From Nonomuraea rubra (GTDB lineage Bacteria; Actinomycetota; Actinomycetes; Streptosporangiales; Streptosporangiaceae), in NCBI RefSeq assembly GCF_014207985.1, contig NZ_JACHMI010000001.1, forward strand, positions 7,733,001 to 7,797,000: a stretch of 64,000 bases of DNA. The letters are read 5' to 3'. Position 1 is the first letter of the stretch. Every line of letters starts with the position of its first letter. This document shows positions 38,403-56,260 of this stretch, piece after piece. The notes under the pieces are model-generated. The model ran no database searches. It was given only the letters and a program-made list of their open reading frames with translations, and was not told the origin of the DNA. Made by a program: the position numbers and the translations under genes.

Positions 38403-38428
38403 ACCGATAGTAGAGCTTTCCACTATCG
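38403..38428. promoter_or_regulatory. Shared 23-bp motif, copy 2 (MMPL promoter)
   Basis: CGATAGT (38405-38411) and ACTATCG (38422-38428) form a perfect dyad. On the minus strand TTGTTC and TACTAT, 18 bp apart, make a plausible promoter around it. The motif overlaps the stop codon of the upstream membrane-protein gene. Confidence 0.75.
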
Positions 38429-39483: not shown

Positions 39484-40515
39484 CTATCCTCTGCGCCGCA
39501 GGGCGGGGTCGAGCAGCTCGGGCGGCCGCCACCCGGCGTCGGCGGCGTTGATCGTCAGCCCGGGCGGCACGATCACGTCGATGGCGTCCAGCACGTCGGG
39601 CGTCAGCCGGACGTCGAGGGCCCGCAGGTGGCTCTCCAGGTGGTCCATCGTGCGCGGGCCGATGATGGCCGACGTCACCGCCGGGTGCTGCATGACGAAC
39701 TGCAGCGCGAGCTCGACCAGCGACATCCCGGCCTGCTCGGCCAGCAGGGCCAGCCGCTCGGCCGCGGCGAGCTTGCGCCGGTTCTCCTCCAGCTCCATGT
39801 CGTAGCGGGCGGGCAGCAGCGCGGCGCGCCTGCTCTGCGGCAGCTCGGCGCCCTCGCGGTACCGGCCGGACAGCCAGCCGCCCGCGAGCGGGCTCCACGC
39901 CAGGACGCCCATGCCGTACTGCTGGCACACCGGCAGGAGGTCGGCCTCGACGGCGCGGGCCAGGATCGAGTACGGGGGCTGCTCGCTGGCGAACCGCTCC
40001 CGGTGCCGCCGCTCGGCGACCCAGTGGGACTCGACGACCCGGTGGGCGGGGAAGGTGGAGCACCCGATGTAGCGCACCTTGCCGGCGCGTACGAGATCGG
40101 TCAGGGCGCCGAGCGTCTCGTCGAGGTCGACGGAGGGGTCGGGCCGGTGGATCTGGTAGAGGTCGATCCGGTCCGTACGCAGCCGGCGCAGGCTGTCCTC
40201 GACGGCCCGCATGATCCAGGCGCGGCTGTTGCCGCCACGGTTGGGCCCCTCGCCCATCTGGCCGTGGACCTTGGTGGCCAGCACGATCTCGTCGCGCAGG
40301 CCGCTCTCGGACAGGAAACGGCCGATCAGCTCCTCGGACTCGCCGGCGGCGTAGACGTCGGCGGTGTCGATGAAGTTCACCCCGGAGTCGACGGCCCGCT
40401 GGATCATCTTGCCGGTCTCTTCCGGGCCGTTCTCGCCCCACCAGCCGAACATCATCCCGCCGAGACAGATCGGACTTACCTTCAGGCCAGTCCGACCAAG
40501 TGGTCGGTAGTCCAT
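39484..40515 (-). CDS. Aldo/keto reductase
   Basis: 343 residues. MDYRPLGRTGLKVSPICLGG opens the barrel; Asp/Tyr in FIDTADVYAAGESEELIG, Lys in VLATKVHG and His in DLYQIHRPDPSVD form the catalytic tetrad; TSAIIGPRTMDHLE is the cofactor loop. NADPH-dependent reduction of an aldehyde or ketone is likely. ATG 40515 follows GGGAG at 9 bp. Divergent from a MerR regulator with a shared operator, so possibly induced by the same signal. Confidence 0.88.
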   Translation of the reverse strand: MDYRPLGRTGLKVSPICLGGMMFGWWGENGPEETGKMIQRAVDSGVNFIDTADVYAAGESEELIGRFLSESGLRDEIVLATKVHGQMGEGPNRGGNSRAWIMRAVEDSLRRLRTDRIDLYQIHRPDPSVDLDETLGALTDLVRAGKVRYIGCSTFPAHRVVESHWVAERRHRERFASEQPPYSILARAVEADLLPVCQQYGMGVLAWSPLAGGWLSGRYREGAELPQSRRAALLPARYDMELEENRRKLAAAERLALLAEQAGMSLVELALQFVMQHPAVTSAIIGPRTMDHLESHLRALDVRLTPDVLDAIDVIVPPGLTINAADAGWRPPELLDPALRRRG

Positions 40516-40629: not shown

Positions 40630-41259
40630 ATGCGCATCGCGGAGCTGAGCCGCCGGGCCGACGTGCCCGTACCGACGATCAAGTACTACCTGCGCGAAGG
40701 TCTCCTGTCCCCTGGCGAGCGCACCAGCTACAACCAGGCCCAATACACCGAGGAACACGTCCGCAGGCTCCGCCTGGTGCGGGCGCTGCTGGAGGTCGGC
40801 GGGCTGAGCGTGGCCGCCACCCGCGACGTCCTGGAGAAGATGGACGCCCCCGGGATGAGCCTCATCGACCAGGCCGGCAAGGCCCAGTTCGCCATGACCG
40901 TCTCCCCGAAGGTGGTCAAGGACGAGGCCTGGCAGGCGGCGGAGGAGGAGACCCAGGCGCTGATCGAGCGGCTCGGCTGGAAGGTGCGCCAGACCAACCC
41001 CGCCCGCCTGACGCTGGCCTCCGCGCTGGCCACGCTGCACCGGCTCGGCAAGACCGACCAGGTGAAGCTGCTGGAGATCTACGCCAGGGCGGCCCGCGAG
41101 GTCGCCGAGGCCGAGCTGGGCCAGCTCATCCAGGACTCCGAGCCGGAGGCGATCCTCGAGACGGCCGTGGTGTGGACGGCGCTCGGCGACGTCGTCTTCA
41201 GCGCGCTGCGCAGGTTCGCCCACGAGGACGTGGCCTACGGCGACGCCGCCCTCGACTGA
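40630..41259 (+). CDS. MerR family transcriptional regulator
   Basis: 209 residues. The MerR winged helix reads MRIAELSRRADVPVPTIKYYLREGLLSPG, then YTEEHVRRLRLVRALLEVGGLSV. The long C-terminal domain has no cysteine metal site, so a small-molecule ligand is more likely than a metal. GGGGAGG precedes the ATG. It is the only DNA-binding protein beside the three copies of the 23-bp motif apart from the orphan response regulator, and so the best candidate for the regulator of that set. Confidence 0.88.
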   Translation: MRIAELSRRADVPVPTIKYYLREGLLSPGERTSYNQAQYTEEHVRRLRLVRALLEVGGLSVAATRDVLEKMDAPGMSLIDQAGKAQFAMTVSPKVVKDEAWQAAEEETQALIERLGWKVRQTNPARLTLASALATLHRLGKTDQVKLLEIYARAAREVAEAELGQLIQDSEPEAILETAVVWTALGDVVFSALRRFAHEDVAYGDAALD

Positions 41260-41384: not shown

Positions 41385-42041
41385 CTACGGCGTGACCGCC
41401 GCCGGCTGGTCCAGCAGCGCGTCGAGTTCCGCGGCCGCCCTGGCGGCGTCGGTGAACTCGATCGCCAGCCAGCCCGCGGCCCGGGCGCCGGCGCAGTTCT
41501 TGGCCAGGTCGTCGACCAGCACGCACTGCCCGGCCGGCACGCCCGCCCGGGCGGCCGCCAGCTCGAAGATCTCCGGGTCCGGCTTCCGGCAGCCGACCTG
41601 CGCGGAGTTGACCACGTCGTCGAAGACGCCCTCCGGCGGCACCATGCGCCGCCAGTGCTCCTCCCACGCCGGCGGCATGTTCGACAACATCCCGACGAAC
41701 AGCCCCCGCTCGCGCACCCGGTGCAGTTGCGCCAGCCACTCGGCGTTGGTACGCCTGCCGTCGAACCAGGCGTCGGCGAAGCTGATCATCGGCGCCTCGA
41801 TCCCCTGCCCTGCCAGCTCGGCGGCGATCTGCCGCAGCCACTCGTCCTCGGTGACCAGCGGGGTGTCCAGCGGCAGCATGAAGTCGTCGGTGCCGTAGCG
41901 GGCGGTCACGTTCGCGACGGCGGTCAGCAACGGGCCGGGCGGCAGGCCCGTCCTCGTGCAGAAGTCCGAGAACGTCTCGCCGACGGGCGGCGTCAGGACC
42001 CCGCCGAAATCCGTCCAGACTGCTTTTATGGAAATCGTCAC
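41385..42041 (-). CDS. HAD-family hydrolase (probable phosphatase)
   Basis: 218 residues. Motif I is VWTDFGGVLTPPV (nucleophile Asp; the second Asp of the usual DxD is Gly, as in the epoxide-hydrolase-like HAD branch), motif II is GMLSNMPP, Lys lies in GCRKPDPEIF, and motif IV is VLVDDLAKN. It probably hydrolyses a small phosphate ester. GTG at 42041 is chosen. It is divergent from the polyketide operon and its promoter abuts the SARP boxes, so it may take part in that pathway, for example removing phosphate from a butenolide phosphate. This is inference. Confidence 0.75.
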   Translation of the reverse strand: MTISIKAVWTDFGGVLTPPVGETFSDFCTRTGLPPGPLLTAVANVTARYGTDDFMLPLDTPLVTEDEWLRQIAAELAGQGIEAPMISFADAWFDGRRTNAEWLAQLHRVRERGLFVGMLSNMPPAWEEHWRRMVPPEGVFDDVVNSAQVGCRKPDPEIFELAAARAGVPAGQCVLVDDLAKNCAGARAAGWLAIEFTDAARAAAELDALLDQPAAVTP

Positions 42042-42153: not shown

Positions 42154-43863
42154 ATGATTCCCTTTGCAGAGACCCTCGGGGAGTTACTCGCTTTCCGGGC
42201 CCGGGAGAACGCCGCAAAAACTGTCTACCGCTTTCTCCCGGACGGCGAGCGTGAATCCCACTCGCTCACCTTCGCCCGGCTCGATCTGGAGGTCCGCGCG
42301 CTGGCCTCCCGGCTCGCCGAACACGCCGCGCCGGGCGAGCGCGCGCTGATCCTGGCACCCGGCTCGGCCGATTTCATCCGCGCGTTCCTGGCCTGTCAGT
42401 ACGCGGGCGTGATCGCCGTCCCGATATTCCCGCCCATGCCGTTCGACGCCCGGCGCGGAACGTCGAACCTGCGGGCCATCGCGCAGGACTGCGCGCCCGG
42501 CGTGGTCCTGTTCGCCGGACCCGACGGGTACGAGCGGTTCATCCGCGACAACTCCCCCGAACTCGCGGCGCTGACGTGGATCGGGGCCGATGAGGCCGAC
42601 GAGGGCCGTACCGGCTTCTCGCCGGTGCCCGCGGACCCGGCGGGCATCTCCTTCCTCCAGTACACCTCGGGATCCACCGCCTCGCCGAAGGGCGTCATGG
42701 TCAGCCACCGGGCGCTGCTCGCCCAGGAGCGGCTGCTGCACGAGATCGGCGACTTCAGCCAGGACTCGGTCATCGTGAGCTGGCTGCCGCTCTTCCACGA
42801 CATGGGACTGATCGGCAACGTGCTGCTCGCGCTCTACGCGGGCTGCGAGGCCGTGCTCATGCCGCCGCTGACGTTCGTGCAGCAGCCGGTCCGGTGGCTG
42901 CGGGCGATCTCCGCCTACCGGGCGACCGTGTCGGGCGGGCCGAACTTCGCGTACGAGCTGTGCGTGCGGCGCGTGCCCGAGCAGGACCGGCAGGGTCTCG
43001 ACCTGAGCAGCCTGCGGGTCGCGTTCAACGGCGCCGAGCCGGTGCGGGCGAGCACCCTGGAGGCGTTCACCGCCGCGTACGCGCCGCACGGGTTCGACGC
43101 GCGCGCACTCTACCCCTGCTACGGCCTGGCCGAGGTGACGCTGATGGCCACCGGCTCCCCCGTCGGGGGCGGCCCCGTCACGCTGGACGTGCACCTCGAC
43201 GCGCTGCAGGAGGGCCGGCTGGTCACCGGCGGCGATCACCGCATCGTCGGCTCCGGCCGTCCAGGCCCACGGCGCCGGCTGGAGATCGTGGACCCGGAGA
43301 CGTGCCTCCCGGTACGGCCCGGCCACGTGGGCGAGATCTGGGTCGCCGGGCCCGACGTGACCGACGGCTACTGGGGCAGGCCGGAGGAGACCGCGGAGGT
43401 CTTCGGCGCCCGCCTGACCGACAGCTTCGAGGGGCCGTTCCTGCGCACCGGTGACCTCGGCGTCGTGCACGAGGGCGAGCTGTTCGTCTCGGGCAGGCTG
43501 AAGGACCTGATCATCGTCGGCGGGCGCAACCACTACCCGCAGGACCTGGAGGCGACGGCCGAGACGGCGCATCCCCTGGTCAGGCGCGGCTGCGTGGTCG
43601 CGTTCGGCGACGCGCCGCTGGTCGTGGTGGCCGAGGTCAAGGCAGGGGCGACCGAGGAGCAGCTCGCGCGGGTCGGGCCGGCCGTACGCACCGCCGTCGC
43701 CGCCGGGCACGGCGTCCAGGTCGACGAGGTCGTGCTGATCGCCGCCGGCACCATGCCCAAGACGTCCAGCGGCAAGCTGCAGCGGCGGGCCTGCCGCGCG
43801 GCCTACGAGCGCGGCACGCTGACGGCCGCCGCGCCCGCACTCCAGCTCGAAGGAGCGTCATGA
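42154..43863 (+). CDS. Fatty acyl-AMP ligase (FAAL), starter-loading enzyme
   Basis: 569 residues. ANL motifs: FLQYTSGSTASPKGVMVSH (P-loop), SWLPLFHDMGLIG, FNGAEPVR, CYGLAEVTL, LRTGDLGVV and the C-terminal Lys in KTSSGKLQRR. The overall pattern is that of FAALs, which form acyl-adenylate and pass the chain to a carrier protein rather than CoA. The likely acceptor is the ACP at the N-terminus of the next protein. Codon 11 is TTA (42184-42186), rare in this genome and dependent on the bldA-type tRNA. First gene of the operon; its stop overlaps the PKS start (ATGA). Confidence 0.88.
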   Translation: MIPFAETLGELLAFRARENAAKTVYRFLPDGERESHSLTFARLDLEVRALASRLAEHAAPGERALILAPGSADFIRAFLACQYAGVIAVPIFPPMPFDARRGTSNLRAIAQDCAPGVVLFAGPDGYERFIRDNSPELAALTWIGADEADEGRTGFSPVPADPAGISFLQYTSGSTASPKGVMVSHRALLAQERLLHEIGDFSQDSVIVSWLPLFHDMGLIGNVLLALYAGCEAVLMPPLTFVQQPVRWLRAISAYRATVSGGPNFAYELCVRRVPEQDRQGLDLSSLRVAFNGAEPVRASTLEAFTAAYAPHGFDARALYPCYGLAEVTLMATGSPVGGGPVTLDVHLDALQEGRLVTGGDHRIVGSGRPGPRRRLEIVDPETCLPVRPGHVGEIWVAGPDVTDGYWGRPEETAEVFGARLTDSFEGPFLRTGDLGVVHEGELFVSGRLKDLIIVGGRNHYPQDLEATAETAHPLVRRGCVVAFGDAPLVVVAEVKAGATEEQLARVGPAVRTAVAAGHGVQVDEVVLIAAGTMPKTSSGKLQRRACRAAYERGTLTAAAPALQLEGAS

Positions 43864-46800
43864 CCACGCACCAGGAGACCGTCGAGTGGCTGCTGCGGCG
43901 CACGGCCGAGCTGCTGTCGGCGCCGGTCGCCGGCCTGTCGCCCGACACGCCGTTCTCCCAGCTCGGGCTCTCGTCCATGCAGTCGGTCGAGCTCGCGGGC
44001 GATCTGGAACGGTGGAGCGGCCGGTCCCTGTCGCCGACGATCGCCTACGACTACCCGACGATCGAGGCGGTGGCCGCGTACCTCACCTCGCCGGACGAGC
44101 AGCCGGACGAGCAGCCGGCCGAGCAGCCGGCCGAGCAGCCGGCCGAGCAGCCGGCCGGACGCCCGGACGCGGCACACGGCGAGCCCGTCGCCATCGTGGG
44201 CATCGGCTGCCGCCTGCCCGGCGCCGACGGGCCGGCGGGCTTCTGGAACGCGCTGCGCGAAGGGGTGGACGCCATCCGGGAGGTGCCGGCCGGCCGGTGG
44301 GACGGCGAGGCGCTCTACGACCCCGACCCCGACCGGCCCGGCCGGATGAACACCCGGTGGGGCGGCTTCCTTGACGACGTGGAGAGCTTCGACTCCGACT
44401 TCTTCGCGATCTCCGCGCGGGAGGCCGCGCGCATGGACCCGCAGCAGCGCCTGCTGCTGGAGGTCGCCTGGGAGGCGCTGGAGGACGCCGGCGTGCCCGC
44501 GTCCGTCCTGTCGGGCGCGCGGGCCGGCGTCTTCGTCGGAGCCTCCACCTACGACCACGGCGCGTCCCTGCTCAGCTCGGGCGCCGAGCCCGAGGCGTAC
44601 GACGGCACCGGCGCCGCGCTCAGCGTCATCGCCAACCGGCTGTCGTACTGCCTGAACCTGCGCGGGCCCAGCCTGGTCGTCGACAGCGCCTGCTCCTCCT
44701 CTCTCGTGGCCGTCCACCTGGCCTGCCAGGCGCTGCGCGCCGGGGAGGCGGACCTCGCGCTCGCCGGCGGGGTCAACGTCATCACCAGCCCGCGGATCGC
44801 GCTCAGCTTCAGCAAGGGCAGGCTGATGGCGCCCGACGGCCGGTGCAAGCCGTTCGACCAGCGGGCCAACGGGTACGTGCGCAGCGAGGGCGCGGGCGTG
44901 GTGCTGCTGCGGCCGCTGTCGGCGGCGCTGGCCGCCGGTGACCGGATCTACGCGGTGATCCACGGCAGTGCCGTCAACCAGGACGGGCGTACCAACGGCC
45001 TGGCCGCGCCGAACCGGCCCGCCCAGGAGGAGGTGCTGCGCTCGGCGTACGCCGCCGCCGGCATCGACCCCGCGACGGTCGACTACGTCGAGGCGCACGG
45101 CACCGGTACGGCGGTCGGCGACCCGATCGAGGTGGCGGCCCTGGCCACGGTCCTCGGCCCGGGCCGGCCGGAGGAGCGGCCGCTGCGGATCGGCTCCGCC
45201 AAGTCGAACGTCGGGCACCTGGAGGCGGCGGCGGGCGTGGCGGGGCTGATCAAGGCGGCGCTGTCGCTGCACCACGGCGAACTGCCGCCGACCGTGCACT
45301 TCACCAAGCCCAACCCGCTGCTCGGCCTCGACCGCCTCCCGGTCGTCGTCCAGGACCGCACCGAACCGTGGCCGTCTGACGGCCCGGCCCACTCGCCGGG
45401 GACGGCTCGGCGCACGGCCGGCGTCAGCTCGTTCGGCTTCGGCGGCACCAACTCCCACGTCGTCCTGTCATCGGCACCTCCCCAGCCGGCCCCCGGCGGC
45501 TCTTCCGGTTCGGGCGGCGGGTTGCACCTGTTCCCGATCTCCGCGCGTTCGGAGGCGGCACTGCGGCGGCGGGCGGCGGCGCTGGCCGCCGTGGCGCGCG
45601 GCAGGGCGGGCGACACGGCCTGGCTGGCCGGGGCGGCCGCGGCGGCGGCGCTGCGCGGCGACCACGACCGCCACCGCGCCGCCGTCGTCGCCGCCTCCCC
45701 CGAAGAGCTCGCGACCGCGATGACCGCACTGGCGGAGGGCCCTGACGAGGCGAGCACGCGCAGGCGCCGGACCCAGCGCCCCACGCTCGTCTTCCCCGGC
45801 CAGGGCGCCCAGTGGGAGGGCATGGGCAAGCAGCTCGCCGACGCCGTCCCCGCCTTCCGGGCGGCCATCCGCAGATGCGACGCGGCGATCAGCCGCCTGC
45901 TGGGCGAGCCGCTCTGGGACGACGAACGCGGCCTCACCCCGCGCGGCACCGCCCACGTCCAGCCCGCGCTCTTCGCCTACCAGGTGGCGCTGGCCGAGAC
46001 GTGGCGGGCGTGGGGCGTCGAGCCGGCCGCGGTGATCGGGCACAGCATGGGCGAGATCGCCGCCGCGCACGTCGCCGGCGCGCTGTCGCTGGAGGACGCC
46101 GCCCGCGTCGTCTGCGAGCGCAGCAGGCTGCTCACCCGGCTCACCGGCCAGGGCGGCCTGGCGCTGGTCGAGCTGGACGCCGAGGAGGCGGACCGCGCCC
46201 TGGCCGGCCGCCGCGACCGGCTGTCGGTGGCGGCCGTCAACGGCCCGCGCGCCACGGTGCTGTCCGGAGAGCCGGCGGCGCTGGACGAGGTGATCGCCGA
46301 GCTGGAGGCGCGCGGGGTGTTCGCCCGGCGGGTCGCCGTCGACTTCGCCGCGCACAGCCCCCAGGTCGGGCCGCTGCAGGACGAGCTGTCCGCGGCACTC
46401 GACGGGCTCGCCCCGGGGCCCGCGACGACCCCGCTGTACTCGACGGTCACGGCGGAGCCCGCGGCCGGTCCCGAGCTCGGCCCCGCCTACTGGCGGCGGA
46501 ACGTCCGCGAGCCCGTGCTCTTCTCGCCCACGCTGGAGCAGCTCATCGCCGCGGGACACGAGCTGTTCGTGGAGGTGTCGCCGCACCCGGTGCTCACCCG
46601 CTCGGTGGCCGAGCTCGCCGGCCACCTCGACCGTCCGGTCGAGATCATCTCCTCGGTACGGCGCGACGAGCACGAGGCCCGCGCCCTGCTCGGCGCCCTC
46701 GGCGACCTGTACACCGGCGGCGCCGCCATCGCCTGGGACGCCCTGTACGACGGCGCGGCCCACGTCCCCCTGCCGCCCCACGGGTGGGATCGGCGGCGCT

Positions 46801-49613
46801 TTCCCCTGCTGCGCGCCGTGCCCGGCGCGACCGTCCCGTCAGGTCACGGGGGCGCGCTGCTGGGCGCCCGCCTGAAGGTGGGCGCCGAGCCGGGCCTGCG
46901 GCTGTGGCCGCTGTCGCTCGGCGGCGCGCACGAGCTGGCCGACCACGTCGCCGACGGCGTGCCGCTGGTCCCCGGCGCCTACTGGCTGGCGACCGCCGCC
47001 CAGGCGGCCGCCTCGGCCCGTGACGGCGAGGCCGCCGGTGCCGGGCCGGTGTCGCTGGAGGACGTGGACTTCGCACACCCCTGCCCGGCCGACGGCGACC
47101 CCGGGCTCCAGCTCGCCCTGCGCCCGTCGGGGCCGGGACGGCAGTCCTTCGTCATCACCTCCGACCGCGGCGGCGGCCCGGTGGTCCACGCCCGCGGCAC
47201 CGTCTCCGGCGACACCACCCCGCCGTCGCCCCCTGCCGCTCCCGTCGACCTGCCGGGCGAGGTGCCGGTCTCGGAGCTGTACGAGCGGCTGGCGGCGGCC
47301 GGGCTGGACTACGGCCCGCGTTTCCGTGGCCTGACCGGGCTCCGTACGGGCAACCGTGAAGCGGTCGCGACGTTCGAGCTCCCCGGCGGGCTCGACACCG
47401 GCCGCGCACCGCTGCACCCCGCCCTGCTCGACGCCTGCTTCCACACGGTCGCGGCGGCGGCGGGCGGCGCCCTTCCCGCCCGCGTCCTGCCCCTGCCCGC
47501 CGGGGCCGGGCGCGTGTGGTCGCGCGGCGGGGAGGCCGTGCGGCGCGGTACGGCCCACGCCGTCATCCGCAGGCTCGCCCCCGACGAGCTGGCCGCCGAC
47601 GTCACGGTGAGGTCGGAGGCGGGCGAGGTGGCCTGGGTGGTGTCCGGTCTGCGCATCCGCCTGATCCGGCGCCGCGCCGCCGAGGACGGCCGCCTCTACA
47701 CGCTGCGCTGGCAGCCGCTGACCCCCGGCCCCGCCGTCACCACCCGGGGCGCCTGGCTGGTGCTCGCCGGCCCGGTCCCCGCGAGCGGTCCCGCCTCGGT
47801 GGGCGAACGGCTGGCGGAACGGCTGGCGGCGGCGGGCGAGCCGTACCTGCTCGCCGCCGCGGACCGGCCGCTCGACGAGCTGATCGACGAGGCGATCACC
47901 CGGCACGGCGCCCTGCGCGGCATCCTCGACACCCGCGCCACCAGCACCCTGCCCGCTCCGAACGGCCACGCGTACAACACCGCAACACCGACGCACGAGC
48001 ACGTGGGACCACTGCACGACCGCGCGACGGAGGTGCTGCACGGACGCGCGTCCGAGGCGCTGCGGCTGGCGCGGGACCTGGTCCGGCGGGCGTGGCTCGG
48101 GCAGCCGCCGCGGCTGTGGTTGCTGACGGCGGGCCCGGCCGGGTCGGTGGTGTGGGGCCTCGGCAGGGTGATCGCCAACGAGCATCCCGAACTGGCCGCC
48201 ACGCTGGCGGACCTGCCCGGCTCGCCCACGCGGGCCGACCTCGACGCCCTGGTGACGGCGCTGCGGGCGCAGGACACCCCGGGACAGATCCGGGTACGCG
48301 ACGGCGCCCTGCTGGAGCCGAAGCTCGTGCCGGCCCCGGCGGGGTCCGGCGACCCGGCGCCGATCAGGCCCGGCCGCCCGTACCTGATCACCGGCGGCCT
48401 CGGCGCGCTCGGCCTGCACGTGGCGCGCCGGCTGGTGGAGAGGGGCGCGCGCAGGCTCGTCCTGACCGGCCGCACCGCGCCCGGCCCCCAGGCGCGGGCC
48501 GTGCTGGACGAGCTGCGGGAGGCGGGGACCGAGGTCAGGGTGGAGCTCGCCGACCTGGCCGACGCCGGGCAGCTCGCCAGGGCGCTCCCCGAGGACCTCG
48601 CCGGGGTGTTCCACCTGGCGGGCGTGCTGGAGGACGCGCTGGTCGCCACGCTCGACGACGGCCTCCTGCACCGCGCGCTGGCGGGCAAGGCGGCCGGCGC
48701 CTGGAACCTGCACACGCTGACGGCGGACCTGCCGGTGGAGCACTTCGTTCTGTTCTCGTCGCTGGCCGGCCTGTTCGGCTCGCCGGGGCAGGGCGCCTAC
48801 GCGGCGGCGAACACGTTCCTGGACGGCCTGGCCGAGCACCGGGCCGCACTCGGCCTGCCCGCGCAGAGCATCGACTGGGGCACCTGGTCGGGCACCGGCC
48901 TGGCGGTGGCGGCCGGCGGCGTCGAACGGCTGGCGGCGCGCGGCCTGCCGCCGCTGTCCCCCGAGGTCGCGCTGGACCTGCTGGAGGAGTCCCTCGGCAG
49001 CGGCCGTCGGCACCTGGTGGCGGCGGCGTTCGACTGGGCGGCGTTCGGCAGGGCCGGGCTGGGCCCGGACCTGGCCCGCATGCTGGAGGGGCAGGTGAGC
49101 GCCGACCGGCCGGCGGCGGGCGCGGAGCGCGGCGCCGTCAAGAAGGCCGCGCTGGCCGCCACCGGGGCCGCCGCCCGTCTGGACGTCCTGCGCCGCTTCC
49201 TGCTGGAGCAGGTGGGCGCGGTCCTCGGCCAGACCCCCGAGAGCCTGGACACCTCCGCCCCGCTGCAGGAGCTCGGCTTCGACTCGCTGATGGCCATGGA
49301 GCTGCGCACCCGCCTGGAGACCGGGCTGGACCTGCGGCTGTCTGCCACCGTCGTCTACACCTTCCCGACCGTGGAAGCCCTGGCCGACGGCCTGACCCAG
49401 CGCATCACCGCCGAACGCCCCGCCGCCCCGGACCCGGCCGCCGTACACAACATGGCCGCCGTACTAGACACGGCCGCCGCACAGGACCTGGCGGGCGATG
49501 AGGACGCGGGCGACGAGCCGGGCGTGCCCGGCGAGCTGGCCGCGCTCGACGAGCACGAGCTGGCCGCACTGCTGGCCGAGGAGCTCGACCTGAAGGGAGG
49601 ACGGCATGACTGA
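43860..49613 (+). CDS. Type I polyketide synthase, ACP-KS-AT-DH-KR-ACP
   Basis: 1917 residues. N-terminal ACP (phosphopantetheine Ser39 in LGLSSMQS) to accept the FAAL product; EQPA repeat linker (78-97); KS 107 to about 540 with C278, H413, H453; AT about 640-945 with S729 in GHSMGE and FAAHS at 829-833; DH with H1029 and D1191; KR from about 1505 with GGLGALG, S1634 and Y1647; ACP with S1809 in GFDSLMA; a short acidic C-terminal tail likely docks to the next protein. The AT motif is closer to methylmalonyl YASH than malonyl HAFH but is not decisive. All sites look intact. The module should give an enoyl chain. Confidence 0.93.
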   Translation: MTTHQETVEWLLRRTAELLSAPVAGLSPDTPFSQLGLSSMQSVELAGDLERWSGRSLSPTIAYDYPTIEAVAAYLTSPDEQPDEQPAEQPAEQPAEQPAGRPDAAHGEPVAIVGIGCRLPGADGPAGFWNALREGVDAIREVPAGRWDGEALYDPDPDRPGRMNTRWGGFLDDVESFDSDFFAISAREAARMDPQQRLLLEVAWEALEDAGVPASVLSGARAGVFVGASTYDHGASLLSSGAEPEAYDGTGAALSVIANRLSYCLNLRGPSLVVDSACSSSLVAVHLACQALRAGEADLALAGGVNVITSPRIALSFSKGRLMAPDGRCKPFDQRANGYVRSEGAGVVLLRPLSAALAAGDRIYAVIHGSAVNQDGRTNGLAAPNRPAQEEVLRSAYAAAGIDPATVDYVEAHGTGTAVGDPIEVAALATVLGPGRPEERPLRIGSAKSNVGHLEAAAGVAGLIKAALSLHHGELPPTVHFTKPNPLLGLDRLPVVVQDRTEPWPSDGPAHSPGTARRTAGVSSFGFGGTNSHVVLSSAPPQPAPGGSSGSGGGLHLFPISARSEAALRRRAAALAAVARGRAGDTAWLAGAAAAAALRGDHDRHRAAVVAASPEELATAMTALAEGPDEASTRRRRTQRPTLVFPGQGAQWEGMGKQLADAVPAFRAAIRRCDAAISRLLGEPLWDDERGLTPRGTAHVQPALFAYQVALAETWRAWGVEPAAVIGHSMGEIAAAHVAGALSLEDAARVVCERSRLLTRLTGQGGLALVELDAEEADRALAGRRDRLSVAAVNGPRATVLSGEPAALDEVIAELEARGVFARRVAVDFAAHSPQVGPLQDELSAALDGLAPGPATTPLYSTVTAEPAAGPELGPAYWRRNVREPVLFSPTLEQLIAAGHELFVEVSPHPVLTRSVAELAGHLDRPVEIISSVRRDEHEARALLGALGDLYTGGAAIAWDALYDGAAHVPLPPHGWDRRRFPLLRAVPGATVPSGHGGALLGARLKVGAEPGLRLWPLSLGGAHELADHVADGVPLVPGAYWLATAAQAAASARDGEAAGAGPVSLEDVDFAHPCPADGDPGLQLALRPSGPGRQSFVITSDRGGGPVVHARGTVSGDTTPPSPPAAPVDLPGEVPVSELYERLAAAGLDYGPRFRGLTGLRTGNREAVATFELPGGLDTGRAPLHPALLDACFHTVAAAAGGALPARVLPLPAGAGRVWSRGGEAVRRGTAHAVIRRLAPDELAADVTVRSEAGEVAWVVSGLRIRLIRRRAAEDGRLYTLRWQPLTPGPAVTTRGAWLVLAGPVPASGPASVGERLAERLAAAGEPYLLAAADRPLDELIDEAITRHGALRGILDTRATSTLPAPNGHAYNTATPTHEHVGPLHDRATEVLHGRASEALRLARDLVRRAWLGQPPRLWLLTAGPAGSVVWGLGRVIANEHPELAATLADLPGSPTRADLDALVTALRAQDTPGQIRVRDGALLEPKLVPAPAGSGDPAPIRPGRPYLITGGLGALGLHVARRLVERGARRLVLTGRTAPGPQARAVLDELREAGTEVRVELADLADAGQLARALPEDLAGVFHLAGVLEDALVATLDDGLLHRALAGKAAGAWNLHTLTADLPVEHFVLFSSLAGLFGSPGQGAYAAANTFLDGLAEHRAALGLPAQSIDWGTWSGTGLAVAAGGVERLAARGLPPLSPEVALDLLEESLGSGRRHLVAAAFDWAAFGRAGLGPDLARMLEGQVSADRPAAGAERGAVKKAALAATGAAARLDVLRRFLLEQVGAVLGQTPESLDTSAPLQELGFDSLMAMELRTRLETGLDLRLSATVVYTFPTVEALADGLTQRITAERPAAPDPAAVHNMAAVLDTAAAQDLAGDEDAGDEPGVPGELAALDEHELAALLAEELDLKGGRHD
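44091..44150. repeat. Five 12-bp in-frame tandem repeats in the ACP-KS linker
   Basis: CCGGACGAGCAG twice (44091-44114) then CCGGCCGAGCAG three times (44115-44150), encoding Pro-Asp/Ala-Glu-Gln units between the loading ACP and KS. Confidence 0.92.
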
Positions 49614-52548
49614 CCAGCGCAAACTCCTGGAACGCGCCCTGCTGCAGCTCCGCGACACCCGGGCCCGCCTGGCCGCCGCCGTGTGCGCGGCCCGCGAGCC
49701 GATCTCGGTGCTCGGCGCGGGCGTGCGCCTGCCGGGCGACGTGGCGGACCTGGAGGCGTTCTGGAACCTGCTGCGCGACGGCGTCGACGCCGTCACGCCG
49801 TCGGTCGACACGCTCGACGGCCACCGCCCCGAGCCGGCCGACCGCGCCGAGAACGGCCGCTGGGCCGGGCTGCTGACCGAGGTGGACGGGTTCGACGCCG
49901 GCTTCTTCGGCATCTCGCCCGCCGAGGCGGCCAAGCTGGACCCGCAGCAGCGGCTCGTGCTGGAAGTGGCCTGGGAGGCGATGGAGGACGCGGGCCTGCC
50001 GCTGGAGACGCTGCAGCGTGCCGGCACCGGCGTGTTCCTGGGCGTCTACAACAGCGACTACCTCACCCTCCAGTACGACGACCCGGCCGTGATCAACACC
50101 TACACGGCCCCGGGCGGCGCCCACAGCGTGCTGGCCAACCGCCTGTCCTACCTCCTGGACCTGCGCGGACCCAGCCTGGCCGTGGACACCGCCTGCTCCT
50201 CGTCCCTGATGGCCGTCCACCTGGCGGTGCGGGCGCTGCGGCAGGGCGAGTGCGACATCGCGCTGGCCGGCGGCGTCAACATCATCCTCAACCCCGTCTC
50301 CACGCTGGTCACCGAGAAGGTGCTGCCGCTGGCGCCGGGCGGGCGGTGCCGTACGTTCGACGCCGCGGCCGACGGGATCATCCGCGCGGAGGGGTGCGGC
50401 GTGCTCGTCCTCACCCGCGAGTCGCTGGCCGCGGGCAGGCGCGTGCGCGCGGTGATCCGCGGTACGGCGGCCAACCACGACGGCCGCACCAACGGCCTGA
50501 CGGCGCCCAACCCGCGCGCCCAGGCGGACCTGCTGCGCCGCGCCCTCGGCGACGCGGGCGTACGGCCGGAGCAGGTCACCTACATCGAGGCGCACGGAAC
50601 GGGCACGCCGCTGGGCGACCCGATCGAGGTGGAGGCGCTGCGCGAGGTGTACGGCGACGGCTCCCTGCCGTGCGCGCTCGGCTCGGTGAAGACGAACTTC
50701 GGCCACCAGGAGGCCGCCGCGGGCGTCACCGGCCTGATCAAGGCCATGCTGGTGCTGGAGCACGGGCAGGTGCCGCCCAACGTGCACCTGCGGCGGCTGA
50801 ACCCCGAGATCGACCTGGCCGGCAGCAGGCTGTCGGCCCCGGCCGCGCTCACCGGCCTGGCCCGTGGCGAGCACGCGCCGCTGGCGGCGGTCAGCTCGTT
50901 CGGGTTCGGCGGCGCGAACGCCCACGCGATCGTGCAGGCGCCGCCGCCCCCGCCCGCGGGCGCCGCCACGCTGGGCAAGCTCGTGCTGCCGCTGTCGTCC
51001 CGCGACCCGGCCGCGCTGGCCCCGCTGGCCAGGGCGTACGCGGAGCGGCTGGACGGCTGCGACCCGGCGCAGGCCGCGGCCGTGTGCGCGGCGGCGGGCA
51101 CCCGGCGCACGCACCTGGCGCACCGGCTGTGCCTGACGGCCGCCGGCCCGGCCGAGCTCGTGGCGAAGCTGGGCGAGGTGGACGGCGGGGCTCCGGCGGT
51201 GCCGCCGCGGCCGCCCCGGGTGGCGTTCGTCTTCAGCGGCCAGGGCTCGCAGTGGGCCGGCATGGGGACCGAGCTGCTGCGGCGCGAGCCGGTGGTCGCG
51301 GCGGAGGTGGCGGAGTGCGACGCCGTCGTACGGGAGCTGGCCGGCTGGTCCGTGCTGGAGCAGCTCGCCGACGGCGGCCGGCTGCACGAGACGGAGGTCG
51401 CGCAGGTGGCGATCGGCGCGTTGCAGCTCGGGCTTGCCGCGCTGTGGCGGTCCTGGGGGGTCGAGCCGTCGGCGGTGACCGGACACAGCATGGGCGAGGT
51501 CACCGCGGCGTACGCGGCCGGGGCGCTGGACCGCGCCCAGGCGTTCGACCTGCTGCTGCGCCGGGCGCGGCGGGCCGAGGAGGGCGCGGCGGGCGGCGCC
51601 ATGGCGAGCATCTCGCTGCCACCCGACCGGGTCCGCGAGCTGATCGCCGCCGGAGGCCGGGTGGGGGTCGCCGCTGTGAACGGGCCGCGCTCCACCGTCG
51701 TCGCCGGCGAGCGGCAGGCCGTGGTGGCCGTCTGCGACGCCGCCGAGCGGCTCGGCGCGAACGTGCGCAGGCTCCCCAGCCGCTACGGCTTCCACAGCCC
51801 GATGCTCGACGGCCAGGACGAACGCCTGGCCGCCGAGCTCGCGGACCTGCGCCCAGGCCCGTGCACGGTGCCGATGTACTCCACCGTGACCGGCGCCCTG
51901 GTCCAGCCCGGACAGCTCGGCGCGGCCCACTGGGGGCGCAACCTGCGCGACGCCGTGCGCTTCTCCTCCGCGGTCTCCGCGATCGCCGCCACCGGGGTGA
52001 CGGTGTTCGTGGAGCTCGGCCCGCATCCGGTGCTGCTGCGCGACCTCGGCGAGACGCTGGAGGAGGCCGGTGTCCGCTACCGGGCCGTGGGCAGCCTGCG
52101 GCGCGGCCAGCCGGCGTCCGCCACCCTGGACCGCTCGCTGGCCGACCTCTACCGCGCCGGCCTGGACGTGGACTGGGAGGCGGTGCTCGGCGCCCCGCCC
52201 GCCGACGTCCCGCTGCCCGCCTATCCCTGGCAGCGCCGCCGCCACTGGCTGGGAGAGGCCACGCAGCGGGCCGACCTGGGCACGGCCGTGCCGCAGGCCG
52301 AGCGCGCCGCCACGATCGCCCTGTTCGTACGGCGCCGCATCGCCGACGCCCTCGGCCTCGACGACGTCGAGCAGGTGCCCGAGGACCGGCCGCTGGCGGA
52401 CTTCGCCCTCGATTCGCTGGTGATCGTCGAGCTGAAGGGCCGGGCGGAGAGCGAGCTCGGCGTCACGGTGCCGCTGCAGGCGCTGCTCCGCGTCATGCAC
52501 GGCGGCACGGCGCTCGACCTGGCCGCCATGATCGCGAAGGAGAGCTGA
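49606..52548 (+). CDS. Type I polyketide synthase, KS-AT-ACP
   Basis: 980 residues. An N-terminal helical docking segment (KLLERALLQLRDTRARLAA) is followed by KS with C197, H330 and H367; AT with S628 in GHSMGE and GFHS (H730), the malonyl-CoA type; and ACP with S937 in FALDSLVIVEL. There is no KR, DH, ER or thioesterase, so the chain should leave as a beta-ketoacyl thioester with an enoyl group next to it. The start lies 8 bp inside the end of the previous gene. C-terminal release must come from separate enzymes downstream. Confidence 0.93.
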   Translation: MTDQRKLLERALLQLRDTRARLAAAVCAAREPISVLGAGVRLPGDVADLEAFWNLLRDGVDAVTPSVDTLDGHRPEPADRAENGRWAGLLTEVDGFDAGFFGISPAEAAKLDPQQRLVLEVAWEAMEDAGLPLETLQRAGTGVFLGVYNSDYLTLQYDDPAVINTYTAPGGAHSVLANRLSYLLDLRGPSLAVDTACSSSLMAVHLAVRALRQGECDIALAGGVNIILNPVSTLVTEKVLPLAPGGRCRTFDAAADGIIRAEGCGVLVLTRESLAAGRRVRAVIRGTAANHDGRTNGLTAPNPRAQADLLRRALGDAGVRPEQVTYIEAHGTGTPLGDPIEVEALREVYGDGSLPCALGSVKTNFGHQEAAAGVTGLIKAMLVLEHGQVPPNVHLRRLNPEIDLAGSRLSAPAALTGLARGEHAPLAAVSSFGFGGANAHAIVQAPPPPPAGAATLGKLVLPLSSRDPAALAPLARAYAERLDGCDPAQAAAVCAAAGTRRTHLAHRLCLTAAGPAELVAKLGEVDGGAPAVPPRPPRVAFVFSGQGSQWAGMGTELLRREPVVAAEVAECDAVVRELAGWSVLEQLADGGRLHETEVAQVAIGALQLGLAALWRSWGVEPSAVTGHSMGEVTAAYAAGALDRAQAFDLLLRRARRAEEGAAGGAMASISLPPDRVRELIAAGGRVGVAAVNGPRSTVVAGERQAVVAVCDAAERLGANVRRLPSRYGFHSPMLDGQDERLAAELADLRPGPCTVPMYSTVTGALVQPGQLGAAHWGRNLRDAVRFSSAVSAIAATGVTVFVELGPHPVLLRDLGETLEEAGVRYRAVGSLRRGQPASATLDRSLADLYRAGLDVDWEAVLGAPPADVPLPAYPWQRRRHWLGEATQRADLGTAVPQAERAATIALFVRRRIADALGLDDVEQVPEDRPLADFALDSLVIVELKGRAESELGVTVPLQALLRVMHGGTALDLAAMIAKES

Positions 52549-52552
52549 GCCC

Positions 52553-53305
52553 ATGACCGCACTGGCCTGCCTCGGCGAGAACCCCGCCGCCGCGCTGCGC
52601 CTGATCTGCTTCCCGCACTCCGGCGGGCAGCCGGGCATGTTCCGCCGCTGGGTGGCCGGCCTGGCCCCGGACGTGGAGGTGTGGGGGGCGACGCTGCCCG
52701 GCCGCGCCACCCGGGTGAGCGAGCCGTTCGCCCGGCAGTGGAGCCCGCTCGTCGCCGAGATCACCGACGCCGTGCTCGACCAGGTGCCGGGGCCCGTGGC
52801 GCTGTTCGGGCACAGCCTGGGCGCGCTGCTGGCCTTCGAGGTGGGGCGCGCGCTGACGCTGGCCGGGCGGGCGCCCGAGCACCTCGTGGTCTCCGCCCGT
52901 GCCACGCCCGCCACGCCGTACCCGCTGACCCTGCCGGACGGCGACGAGGAGCTGATCGACGCCGTGGACCGCGTCTACCAGGGCATCCCGGCGGCGCTGC
53001 GCGACTCGCCCGAGCTGCTGCGGCTGTTCGCGCCGGTGCTGCGCGCCGACCTGGAGCTGGCCGTCTCCTACGTGTTCCGGCCCGGGCCCCCGCTGTCGTG
53101 CCCGATCACGGCGCTCGGCGGCACGGACGACCCGACGGTGTCCGAGGCCGAGCTGTCCGCCTGGCGCCGCCACACCAGCGGCGCGTTCGCCTCCGCCCGC
53201 TTCCCCGGCGGCCACTTCTACCTCGACGCCGCCGAACGCCCGGTGCTGGACACGCTCTGGCGGTGCCTGGCGCCCCGCCACGCTCTGACGAGGAGTTCGT
53301 CGTGA
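52553..53305 (+). CDS. Type II thioesterase
   Basis: 250 residues, alpha/beta hydrolase. FPHSGGQPGMFRRW, the nucleophile Ser88 in LFGHSLGALLAFEVG, and the terminal His in FPGGHFYLD are as in stand-alone polyketide/NRPS editing thioesterases. It clears stalled chains from carrier proteins and could also release product. It starts 4 bp after the PKS stop; its own stop overlaps the AfsA-family start. Confidence 0.9.
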   Translation: MTALACLGENPAAALRLICFPHSGGQPGMFRRWVAGLAPDVEVWGATLPGRATRVSEPFARQWSPLVAEITDAVLDQVPGPVALFGHSLGALLAFEVGRALTLAGRAPEHLVVSARATPATPYPLTLPDGDEELIDAVDRVYQGIPAALRDSPELLRLFAPVLRADLELAVSYVFRPGPPLSCPITALGGTDDPTVSEAELSAWRRHTSGAFASARFPGGHFYLDAAERPVLDTLWRCLAPRHALTRSSS

Positions 53306-54240
53306 CCTCTGACCCGTACGGAAAGCTGACCTTCGACCAGACGGTGCCGCGCTCGCTGGCCCACAGGCAGGCCGTGGGCGAGGTGTTCGTCACCGACTCC
53401 GCCCCGGGGCCGGACGGCGACTTCCTGGTGGCCGTGCAGGTGCCGCGCGCGCACAGCCTCTGGTTCGACCGGCTCGTCCCCTTCCATGACCCGTTCTCCA
53501 CGGCCGAGGCGGCCCGGCAGGGGTCGTTCGTCGTGCTGCACCGGTACTTCGGGGTGCCCGTCGGGCTGCCGTTCAGCCTGCTGCGGTGGCAGTTCCGCGT
53601 GCACGACCTGGCCGCGTACCGCGACGACGAGCGGTCGCCGCTGCAGGGGGTCCTGCGTTACCAGGTGAACGACAAGTCCAAGGGCGGCGAGCTGGGCGAC
53701 CTGACGCTGTCCGGGGAGCTGACGATCGGCTCCTCCACCGCCATGAGCTTCAACGGGGACGTGGTCTTCTTCGGCAAGGCGGACTACGCGGCACTGCGCG
53801 AGTTCCAGCAGGCGAGCAAGCCGCCGCCGGACCCGGCCGCGTCCGCCGTCACGCCGCTGGACCCGGCGCTGGTCGGCCGCCGCGATCGGCGCAACGTGGT
53901 CATCGGGGACGGGGAACGCTTCCCGTACGTGATCGACACCAGCCATCCCTCCTACTTCGACCACGCCTACGACCACGTGCCCGGGCCGTTCATCGTCGAG
54001 GGCTTCCGGCAGTCGGCGGTGGTCGCGGCGGTGCGGGCCGGGGAGCTGCCCTCGCCGGTCGCCGCCGTACTCGGCTGCACGACGACGTTCGGGTCGTTCG
54101 GCGAGTTCGGGGCGTTGCTGGAGTGCTCGGCCGAGGTGACGGGGGCGGCCGGCGGGCGCGTCACCGTCGCGGTGGAGCTGCACCAGTACGGCAAGCGGCT
54201 CGCGTCGGCGGGCATCGAGCTCGGGCCGTACCCGGCATGA
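53302..54240 (+). CDS. AfsA-family (A-factor biosynthesis hotdog) protein
   Basis: 312 residues with the two hotdog repeats of AfsA/ScbA. Repeat 1: VPRSLAHRQAVGEVFVTD, VPRAHSLWFD, TAEAARQGSFVVLHRYFGV. Repeat 2: DHAYDHVPGPFIVEGFRQSA, GCTTTFGSFGEFGALLEC. The Glu-x-x-Arg motifs (EAARQ, EGFRQ) match residues found important in ScbA. AfsA condenses a beta-ketoacyl thioester with dihydroxyacetone phosphate to a butenolide phosphate. Here the substrate is likely the chain made by the preceding PKS. GTG 53302 has AGGAG at 6 bp and overlaps the thioesterase stop. Confidence 0.88.
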   Translation: MTSDPYGKLTFDQTVPRSLAHRQAVGEVFVTDSAPGPDGDFLVAVQVPRAHSLWFDRLVPFHDPFSTAEAARQGSFVVLHRYFGVPVGLPFSLLRWQFRVHDLAAYRDDERSPLQGVLRYQVNDKSKGGELGDLTLSGELTIGSSTAMSFNGDVVFFGKADYAALREFQQASKPPPDPAASAVTPLDPALVGRRDRRNVVIGDGERFPYVIDTSHPSYFDHAYDHVPGPFIVEGFRQSAVVAAVRAGELPSPVAAVLGCTTTFGSFGEFGALLECSAEVTGAAGGRVTVAVELHQYGKRLASAGIELGPYPA

Positions 54241-55787
54241 GCCGCCTGCGCTCCCCGGTCGCGGCCGCCGGGCTGATCGCCTTCGCCCTGACGCTCACCC
54301 TGAGCTCCGGGAACGTCGCCCTGCCCGCGATCGAACGCGACCTCGGCGTCTCCTTCGCGGTCAGCCGCTGGGCCGTGCTCGGCTACGCCCTCGCAGCCGT
54401 CGTGTTCGTTCCCTTCGCCTGGCGGTCCCTGCGGGGGGTGGGGCTTCGGCGGGCGATGGTGTGGGGGGTGGGCGGTTTCGGGGTGGCTTCGGTGGTGTGC
54501 GCGCTGGCGCCCGAGATCGGCACGCTGCTGGCCGGACGCCTGGTGCTGGCCGCCTTCGCCGCTCTCCTGACAGTCCTGACCACCGTCCTGGCCGTGTCCG
54601 GTGAGGGCCAGGGTACGGTGCCGGGCACGAACCGGAACGCCGTACCTATCACGGTCCGGAACGCCGTGCCCAGCCCGGGCCGCAACGCCGTGTCCAGCCC
54701 CGGGTCGGTGGAGCGCGACCCGGGGGCGGAGCTTGCGGGCGCCGGGGCGGCGGGGCGTGGTGCGGTGGAGCTCGGCGCAACGCGCGCGTCCGGGAAGGCG
54801 GGTGGGCGGCGGGACGGCAGCGTCGGCGGGCTGGCGGTCGCGGCCGTCTGCGCCACGCTCGGCGGGTTCGCCGGGGCGGCGGCGGGCGGTGGGCTGGTGA
54901 GCCCGCTCGGCTGGCGCGCCCTGCTCCTCCTGCCCGTCCCGCTCTGCCTCCTCGCCCTCATCACACGCATCCCCGGCCCCCGGCCGAGCGCTCGTGCGTC
55001 CGCGACTTCCAACCCCGCGACGGCCTCATCAACGGCTGCGTTCGCGGACACCACCGTCTCCTCACCAACCACCGCACAGACCAACACCACCGTCTCCTTG
55101 CCGACGACCGCACAGACCAACACCGCGATCTCCCCATCAAGAGCCGCACCCACCGGCACCCCGGCCGCCCGTGCCCCCGCCCTGCTCGCCGTCACGATGC
55201 TGGCCACGATCGACGCGCTGGTCATCGTCCTGAGCCCGTTCTTCCTCTTCCAGGGCCAGGTGATGCAGTCCGCACTGCCGCTGGTGGGCCTGACCGTGAC
55301 GGGCCTGCCGGTCGCGCTCATCGCGGGCGCCGCGATCGGCACCCGCCTGACCGGCCGGTTTGGCCCCCGGGCCGTCGCTCTGGCCGGCGCCGCGCTGGCC
55401 GCTCTCGGGCTGCTGCTCCTGCTGCCCCTCTCCCCCGCGTGGTCCGCCGCCGAGGTGGCGCTGCGGCTCGCCGTGGTGGGTGCCGGGATGGGCCTGTACG
55501 GCGGCCCCGCCCACTCCCTGGTCATGACCGGCGGCGCGCTCGACCGTGCCGCCGGCCGGCTCCAGTTCGCGCGCGGCCTCGGCTACGTCCTGGGCCCCGC
55601 TCTGGCCGCCACCCTGTGGGCGGCCGAGGGGTTCGGGAGAGCCGGGGTGGGCACCGCGCTCCTGCCTGCGCTCGGCGCCGCCGCGGTGGCGGCGCTCACC
55701 CTGATCCCCTACCGCTCCATGACCACCCGACGACCTTCACTCCAACGACCGGGAGCACCATGGACACCCACGCGATCAAGAGTCTGA
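54237..55787 (+). CDS. MFS exporter with repeat-bearing loops
   Basis: 516 residues, about 12 membrane segments (AAAGLIAFALTLTLSSGNVALPAI onward). Two long loops are low complexity: after segment 4, three NRNAVPIT/GRNAVSSP-type units (54622-54705), and in the central loop TTAQTNTTVSLP-type units of 36 bp (about 55050-55135). Probably exports the polyketide product. The ATG overlaps the AfsA-family stop (ATGA), and its end overlaps the next start by 28 bp. Confidence 0.8.
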   Translation: MSRLRSPVAAAGLIAFALTLTLSSGNVALPAIERDLGVSFAVSRWAVLGYALAAVVFVPFAWRSLRGVGLRRAMVWGVGGFGVASVVCALAPEIGTLLAGRLVLAAFAALLTVLTTVLAVSGEGQGTVPGTNRNAVPITVRNAVPSPGRNAVSSPGSVERDPGAELAGAGAAGRGAVELGATRASGKAGGRRDGSVGGLAVAAVCATLGGFAGAAAGGGLVSPLGWRALLLLPVPLCLLALITRIPGPRPSARASATSNPATASSTAAFADTTVSSPTTAQTNTTVSLPTTAQTNTAISPSRAAPTGTPAARAPALLAVTMLATIDALVIVLSPFFLFQGQVMQSALPLVGLTVTGLPVALIAGAAIGTRLTGRFGPRAVALAGAALAALGLLLLLPLSPAWSAAEVALRLAVVGAGMGLYGGPAHSLVMTGGALDRAAGRLQFARGLGYVLGPALAATLWAAEGFGRAGVGTALLPALGAAAVAALTLIPYRSMTTRRPSLQRPGAPWTPTRSRV

Positions 55788-56260
55788 TGACCGAGGCCGT
55801 CACCCAGCTCACGGCCCCCGCCCGCCCGATCGAGGTGCGGCACACGCCCAGGCGGCACGTCTACCACCGCCAGGTGCGCTTCTCCGACATCGACGCCCAC
55901 GGCCACGTGAACAACGTGCGCTTCCTGGAGTACCTGGAGGACGCCCGGATCGCCCTCTTCCTCGACTACGCGGGCACACCGCCCGAGGACCGCAGCGGGT
56001 TGCCCGCCGTAGGGGTCGCGATCGTGCGGCACGAGGTCGACTACCGCAGGCCGCTCAGGTTCCGGCACGGCTCGGTGCGGATCGAGTCGTGGGTGACGAA
56101 GGTGAACCGGGTCAGCTGCGAACTGGCCGCGGAGATCTGCTCGGACGAGGGGGTGTTCGCCGAGGCCCGCTCCACGATCATGGCCTTCGACCCGCACACC
56201 GCCAAACCACGGCGTTTCACCATCCCGGAGCGCACCTTCCTCAAGCGCTATCTGCACTGA
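55760..56260 (+). CDS. Hotdog-fold acyl thioesterase (4HBT/FadM type)
   Basis: 166 residues. HRQVRFSDIDAHGHVNNVRFLEYLEDARI contains the catalytic Asp and the helix start of 4-hydroxybenzoyl-CoA-type thioesterases. GGGAG precedes the ATG. Such enzymes hydrolyse acyl-CoA or beta-ketoacyl-ACP; here it may release or proofread the polyketide or supply free acid for the FAAL. Embedded in the operon by overlaps on both sides. Confidence 0.85.
   Translation: MDTHAIKSLMTEAVTQLTAPARPIEVRHTPRRHVYHRQVRFSDIDAHGHVNNVRFLEYLEDARIALFLDYAGTPPEDRSGLPAVGVAIVRHEVDYRRPLRFRHGSVRIESWVTKVNRVSCELAAEICSDEGVFAEARSTIMAFDPHTAKPRRFTIPERTFLKRYLH

Follow-up and report, generated by a model that had tools for sequence, protein, structure and literature searches.

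A polyketide synthase line in Nonomuraea rubra with predicted fatty-acid priming and predicted chain release by a discrete AfsA-family protein

How does a polyketide synthase (PKS) line let go of its chain when its last module carries no thioesterase (TE)? The question is raised by an operon in a 64,000-nucleotide stretch of DNA from the soil actinomycete Nonomuraea rubra (contig NZ_JACHMI010000001.1, positions 7,733,001 to 7,797,000 of the forward strand; hereafter the window, numbered from its first base), where genes for a fatty acyl-AMP ligase (FAAL) and two PKS proteins are followed by genes for a type II TE and an AfsA-family protein. We predict that this cluster starts from a fatty acid, lengthens it and releases it by coupling it to a three-carbon sugar phosphate, giving a ring-ended lipid. 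On the evidence of the sequence and of analogy, the AfsA protein probably takes an unsaturated beta-ketoacyl chain off the line by linking it to dihydroxyacetone phosphate (DHAP), and the acyl-butenolide phosphate would then be dephosphorylated and oxidised.

An earlier sequence-only reading of this DNA had proposed a six-gene operon running from the FAAL to an MFS transporter. All six genes were found where it had placed them, with open frames (Table 1). The MFS gene is not the last, however; three more overlapping genes carry the operon to 58112. From 42154 onwards it thus comprises nine plus-strand genes, each overlapping or almost abutting the next (gaps of -28 to +4 bases). The first protein showed both kinship to solved FAALs (FadD32, FadD23 and FadD28 are among its PDB relatives) and a FAAL-type C-terminal domain. 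NCBIfam fatty-acid--AMP ligase models were among its best matches, under their cut-offs.

In the two PKS proteins we observed the motifs on which ketosynthase (KS), acyltransferase (AT), dehydratase (DH), ketoreductase (KR) and acyl carrier protein (ACP) domains depend: KS Cys/His, AT Ser, DH His/Asp, KR nucleotide and Ser/Tyr/Asn, and ACP Ser. Both modules carry their own AT, which makes this a cis-AT line, and AfsA is encoded by a separate gene. The AT of the second module had the motif Y[GA]FHS in 21 of 21 rows (Y-G-F-H-S in the window), which we take to be the malonyl type. The first AT had FAAHS in 18 of the 19 PKS1 rows examined and VAGHS in locus L020; we take FAAHS not to be the malonyl type, and this AT may admit methylmalonyl. 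These counts omit the 'PKS1' rows of L011 and L015, which are actually PKS2. Pfam found neither a TE nor a reductase nor any other domain for release in PKS2, which ends shortly past its ACP. The domains and motifs back the earlier proposal of FAAL priming, an unsaturated first extension and an unreduced last module, and no overlooked release domain came to light. A last module of this kind is expected to hand over a beta-ketoacyl-ACP, the class of substrate on which AfsA enzymes act. Separately, the linker past the first ACP of PKS1 is encoded by a 12-base repeat in 5.7 copies (44090-44157), which gives a Pro-Ala-Glu-Gln repeat.

Is the AfsA-family protein equipped for such a reaction? The whole protein scored 98.9 bits against PF03756 (cut-off 24), in two hotdog stretches. 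Both Glu-x-x-Arg sites that the sequence-only reading had singled out are kept, each followed by Gln (E69-R72-Q73 and E233-R236-Q237). Residues E69, R72, Q73, D224, H225, E233, R236 and Q237 were identical in every alignment row with a letter there, namely in 24 of 24 references (an MmfL-type protein among them) and in all those of the 40 locus rows that have one. The structure model is a double hotdog (pLDDT 85.6, pTM 0.88), in which helices 64-83 and 228-245 bear the two sites. Its best Foldseek matches were thioesterases; ranked by Z, trypanosome mitoribosome assembly chains came top, followed by acyl-ACP thioesterases and, lower, PKS dehydratase domains. The protein could on this account be a dehydratase or thioesterase acting on the ACP-bound chain instead of a condensing enzyme, since the fold matches acyl-ACP thioesterases and PKS dehydratase/pyran-synthase domains. 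Fold likeness shows no function, however, and the protein belongs to PF03756 and keeps the Glu-x-x-Arg pair together with other positions invariant in ScbA/BarX and MmfL; we consider this alternative highly improbable.

In a tree of 64 rows, the window protein and those of 36 loci (37 of 64 rows) formed one AfsA group (SH-aLRT 99), separate from the ScbA/BarX, MmfL-type and pFiD188 references; L044, L045 and L046 fell outside it. The tree used the AfsA frames of 39 of the 42 loci L005-L046 (without L034, L040 and L041) and left out L003 and L047. The window AfsA shares PF03756 and both Glu-x-x-Arg sites with the gamma-butyrolactone synthases AfsA, ScbA and BarX, but lies outside their rows, scores under the ScbA_BarX equivalog cut-off and is coupled to a dedicated PKS. 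One protein of the window's group (P0102, 536 aa) is an AfsA fused to a phosphopantetheinyl transferase, which links AfsA to carrier-protein chemistry.

Chain release by an AfsA-like enzyme has a precedent in Burkholderia gladioli. The AfsA-like domain of the gladiostatin PKS condenses a beta-ketothioester (3-ketothioester) with DHAP in vitro (PMC7756379), and gladiofungin was lost when part of the AfsA domain was deleted (PMC7756420). The likeness to the window lies in an AfsA-like enzyme that takes a beta-ketothioester from the last PKS module (a prediction for the window), in a last module without a TE and in candidate phosphatases within the cluster (PMC7756379, PMC7756420). The B. gladioli lines are trans-AT, with the AfsA fused C-terminally and a glutarimide start, whereas the line in the window is cis-AT, is predicted to be primed by a FAAL and has its AfsA as a discrete protein. 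Styrolide A is named beside gladiofungin as an AfsA-like butenolide in PMC12304814. On the B. gladioli analogy, the window AfsA would release its chain in trans as an acyl-butenolide phosphate. The salinipostin (spt) cluster is also said to use an AfsA-type condensation with DHAP.

We infer the chemistry of every step from family membership and gene order. As its family suggests, the FAAL would adenylate a fatty acid and load it onto the N-terminal ACP of PKS1. The domains of module 1 would extend the chain once, with KR and DH leaving a double bond, and PKS2 would add malonyl and leave the beta-ketone in place. AfsA, acting in trans on the PKS2 ACP, would condense the beta-ketoacyl group with DHAP, and ring closure would give a 2-(2-enoyl)-3-(phosphooxymethyl)butenolide, while the type II TE would edit stalled chains. 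More tentatively, the HAD-superfamily protein encoded beside the operon may remove the phosphate, the FAD monooxygenase may oxidise the acyl-butenolide and the MFS and MMPL proteins may export it.

An AfsA protein search gave 172 matches, 120 of them listed, and an AfsA scan of bacterial genome contigs gave 43 loci. The nearest named relatives were Nonomuraea species (AfsA 96% in N. thailandensis). A KS lay upstream of AfsA on the same strand in 37 of the 43 loci; among the six others, L028, L036 and L047 begin at contig ends, and L034, L045 and L046 had no KS at the threshold. Between that KS and AfsA, an AT was matched in 37 of 37 loci, and neither a KR nor a DH in any. In many of those loci the same queries did find both domains, in earlier modules. 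For the 36 loci of the AfsA group, the count was 34 with an upstream KS, plus L028 and L036 with an AT at the contig end.

We distinguished two lines. Line A has a FAAL, ACP-KS-AT-DH-KR-ACP and KS-AT-ACP, with a TE in 19 of 21 genomes (the window, N. gerenzanensis and 19 others), and its hosts are Nonomuraea, Microtetraspora, Spongiactinospora, Streptomonospora, Nocardiopsis, Nocardia, Frankia, Kitasatospora, Yinghuangia and Streptomyces. Line B, seen in Nocardia and Streptomyces, is built from other modules, and in many of its loci an amine-oxidase-like gene comes directly past AfsA. IS4-type transposase genes adjoin the FAAL in Kitasatospora (L060 16821-17858) and S. hoynatensis (L061 2186-3178), a hint of mobility.

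This survey bears on a second way in which the chain could leave the line. Among the products of the operon are a complete type II TE and a 4HBT protein, either of which could hydrolyse the beta-ketoacyl chain to give an enone by decarboxylation or a pyrone by ring closure, leaving AfsA to make a separate regulatory butyrolactone from ordinary beta-ketoacyl-ACP; signalling is the role of classical AfsA proteins (PMC7756379). We regard this as unlikely. No TE was matched in two of the 21 line-A genomes (Streptomyces HPF1205 and S. hoynatensis) or between the last KS and AfsA in ten Nocardia line-B loci (L025, L026, L029, L030, L032, L033 and L039-L042), whereas the unreduced last module persists in all 37 loci with an upstream KS. 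The afsA gene is translationally coupled and sits between the TE and MFS genes. No TetR receptor was seen among the typed open reading frames (ORFs) of 33.8-63.8 kb, where the only regulators are MerR, LuxR and SARP; the nearest TetR noticed among the best 150 of 664 candidates lies at 23498-24070.

We also asked whether these genes form one unit. A FAAL of at least 52% identity was found in 19 of 20 genomes searched, which were drawn from the 43 AfsA loci (line A and Nocardia gamkensis); the best match in N. gamkensis was 47%. The FAAL lay on a contig other than that of AfsA in Frankia CIT1 and N. lijiangensis. Within Nonomuraea, AfsA and FAAL orthologues occurred in the same 5 of 54 genomes. 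Pairwise distances of AfsA were correlated with those of FAAL (r = 0.96, 21 genomes), KS2 (r = 0.91, 21 genomes), TE (r = 0.95, 19 genomes), FAD monooxygenase (r = 0.95, 12 genomes) and HAD (r = 0.79, 16 genomes), and for each correlation none of 2000 permutations was as high. Because the FAAL accompanies AfsA in 19 of the 20 genomes and the gene distances are correlated, the association of these genes exceeds chance.

In a class-wide draw of 296 genomes, FAAL was present in 2 and AfsA in 3; the third AfsA, a relative at 38%, had no accompanying FAAL at the chosen threshold. These counts indicate that the cluster type is rare. The sequence-only reading had called the arrangement not a standard one. 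Its rarity stands, but we observed a recurrent cluster type across several actinomycete families.

What becomes of the released ring is addressed by the neighbouring genes. The HAD gene stands head-to-head with the FAAL gene in 15 of 21 line-A genomes, the two starts being about 113 to 447 bases apart (1849 in Streptomonospora, with a further gene in the gap). Of those 15 genomes, 13 also gave a match to the FAD monooxygenase, as did none of the other 6; in the two without a monooxygenase match, a contig end cuts the locus off shortly past AfsA. In a second sub-line (Kitasatospora, Yinghuangia, Frankia CIT1, S. hoynatensis and N. harenae; 5 of 21), HAD and monooxygenase are replaced by a FAD enzyme of another kind together with an amine-oxidase-like protein. 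Streptomyces HPF1205 has a 39% HAD elsewhere in its genome and neither tailoring set, and the two sets never occurred together in the 21 genomes. The swap suggests that the PKS line and AfsA are the common core and that the fate of the ring differs.

The stretches read of pFiD188 and N. gamkensis contain AfsA, HAD and FAD monooxygenase but no FAAL-PKS line, which links the two tailoring enzymes to the AfsA product rather than to the PKS itself. The AfsA locus of Rhodococcus fascians pFiD188 resembles the window in its HAD (39%), FAD monooxygenase (42%) and aldo/keto reductase (34%) and in having MMPL and MFS genes. It differs in its AfsA, which is 35% identical, and in lacking an annotated FAAL or PKS across the 25 kb read. 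Its gene order is AfsA-HAD-MFS-FAD monooxygenase-aldo/keto reductase, with the MMPL gene near (L004 8429-17963). N. gamkensis (L034) has AfsA, HAD, FAD monooxygenase and MFS together. An MmfL-like locus (L068), which we take to be of the methylenomycin-furan type, likewise has AfsA with an adjoining HAD hydrolase and an acyl-CoA-dehydrogenase-type enzyme, but carries an ScbR-type regulator and has no FAAL or PKS annotated in its 12.7-kb stretch. No BLASTP match was obtained between its HAD and that of the window.

Several observations weigh against the proposed release as a butenolide phosphate, its removal of phosphate or the evidence assembled for them. The sequence-only reading had suggested that the nearby HAD could be the phosphatase. 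Its place beside the FAAL is conserved, but motif I reads DFGG, with the second Asp of DxD missing, in 13 of 13 aligned line-A sequences. The other HAD motifs are Ser/Thr (II), Lys (III) and Asp-Asp (IV), and the alignment has the corresponding stretches L[ST]N, RKP and DD. In the second sub-line, no HAD match was obtained in any of the five genomes, and no phosphatase was found among its 7 typed ORFs. The missing Asp and the sub-line without a HAD match speak for a course in which AfsA does release the chain but the three-carbon partner or its fate differs, the phosphate being kept or eliminated or the ring rebuilt by FAD enzymes into a furan or other heterocycle, without a butenolide end product. 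The FAD monooxygenase and the isatin-hydrolase-like cyclase adjoin the operon, and for AfsA intermediates a conversion into furans and other types has been either proposed or demonstrated (PMC7756379). The HAD is nevertheless kept beside the FAAL in 15 of 21 genomes, which dephosphorylation explains most simply. A HAD whose motif I is DxG may nonetheless act as a phosphatase; E. coli YihX, which has a similar motif I, is among the PDB matches of the window HAD and is named a phosphatase. We judge a different fate unlikely and continue to favour the butenolide phosphate and its dephosphorylation.

Other points against that proposal concern AfsA and the comparisons. The window AfsA scored 170.6 bits against NCBIfam ScbA_BarX (NF041195), below the equivalog cut-off of 200. 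In the gladiofungin system, one Glu-to-Ala exchange in GlaE left the profile like that of the wild type (PMC7756420). That KR and DH are missing between the last KS and AfsA is a result of single-query tblastn searches. In L038, AfsA and the last KS are 8.2 kb apart; in Streptomyces line B the distance is about 5 kb, with other genes between. The FAAL match of N. amikacinitolerans contains a TGA. Distances of AfsA and KS1 were correlated at only r = 0.69 (20 genomes; here too none of 2000 permutations was as high), where five KS1 values of 47-50% may belong to other KS domains, the first module being incompletely covered there. Host relatedness contributes to all the distance correlations. Because the loci were found by an AfsA search, the presence of AfsA in all of them is built in, and the AfsA-independent class-wide draw has only one genome besides the window's with both genes. 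The case as a whole is drawn from sequence.

We lean towards a scattered actinomycete class of fatty-acid-primed cis-AT PKS lines in which a trans-acting AfsA of its own group is the normal means of release, and in which a common acyl-butenolide phosphate would lead to at least two chemically distinct end products through two tailoring sets. Its lipids appear undescribed in the literature searched. In that open literature, no paper had both FAAL and AfsA as whole words, and no described product of close homologues of the operon turned up among the papers listed; the salinipostin papers, not covered by it, may survey related clusters. AfsA and 'fatty acyl-AMP ligase' both occur in a Burkholderia review (PMC12838130), and a Rhodococcus genome paper (PMC5550956) has AfsA, with 'fatty acyl-AMP ligase' in a reference title only. 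Term counts in a 2025 FAAL review (PMC11837247) gave no AfsA, butenolide or butyrolactone.

The genes around the core are listed in Table 1. The sequence-only reading had the core genes right but left out the FAD monooxygenase, cyclase, MMPL, aldo/keto reductase and SARP genes around the operon. The protein without family match and the YtkA-like protein (56260-58112) occur as a pair in five loci of Streptosporangiaceae, one of them that of the window. The PF04199 cyclase was found in 8 of 21 line-A genomes. In Microtetraspora and Spongiactinospora its identity stands at 85-88% over 83-84% of its length, against 62-81% for the remaining cluster genes in the comparison; this conservation is unusually strong for a tailoring gene and perhaps reflects resistance or another constraint.

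Table 1. The AfsA operon and neighbouring genes, with positions in the window
Feature	Position	Strand	Evidence or remark
FAAL, fatty acyl-AMP ligase	42154..43863	+	Pfam AMP-binding 219 bits, AMP-dom_DIP2-like 60 bits
PKS1, ACP-KS-AT-DH-KR-ACP	43860..49613	+	Pfam PP-KS-AT-DH-KR-PP; active-site motifs present
PKS2, KS-AT-ACP	49606..52548	+	Pfam KS-AT-PP
Type II thioesterase, likely editing	52553..53305	+	PF00975 135.7 bits
AfsA-family protein, predicted trans-acting butenolide-phosphate synthase/chain release	53302..54240	+	PF03756, two stretches
MFS transporter, predicted export	54237..55787	+	MFS_1 79.4 bits
4HBT hotdog thioesterase-like protein	55760..56260	+	PF13279 68.6 bits; five loci including the window
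493-aa protein, no family match	56260..57741	+	five loci including the window
YtkA-like 123-aa protein	57741..58112	+	PF13115 24.2 bits, under the cut-off of 25.9; five loci including the window
PF04199 'cyclase', isatin-hydrolase-like metal hydrolase, possible lactone/cyclic-amide hydrolase	58148..58972	-	
Class A FAD monooxygenase, predicted tailoring hydroxylase	58980..60575	-	PF01494 241.7 bits
SARP-type activator	60794..61663	+	BTAD 149.9 bits
HAD-superfamily hydrolase, candidate butenolide-phosphate phosphatase	41385..42041	-	PF00702 47.7 bits
MerR regulator	40630..41259	+	PF13411 70.8 bits; adjoins in relatives as well
Aldo/keto reductase	39484..40455	-	PF00248 272.8 bits
351-aa protein, apparently membrane-bound, no family	38423..39478	-	adjoins in relatives as well
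MMPL transporter, predicted lipid export	36181..38328	-	PF03176 264.8 bits
LuxR (GerE) type response regulator	35265..35900	-	PF00196, PF00072; adjoins in relatives as well
Second MFS transporter, edge of conserved stretch	33803..35224	-	MFS_1 168.7 bits; kept in Nonomuraea and Spongiactinospora

The enzyme family and the principle of AfsA-type release are already known from gladiostatin and gladiofungin. What is new is the predicted priming by a FAAL, the discrete enzyme predicted for release, the cis-AT line and the distribution, which is scattered over several actinomycete families but rare. AfsA chemistry is chiefly associated with signalling molecules and, since 2020, also with a few PKS products, these two among them. 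If the prediction is true, these clusters would supply a range of small, two-module systems ready for work on release in trans, and a KS-AT-ACP last module followed by AfsA would serve as a handle for genome mining. It would also point to a new class of lipids in Nocardia, Frankia, Nonomuraea and Streptomycetaceae.

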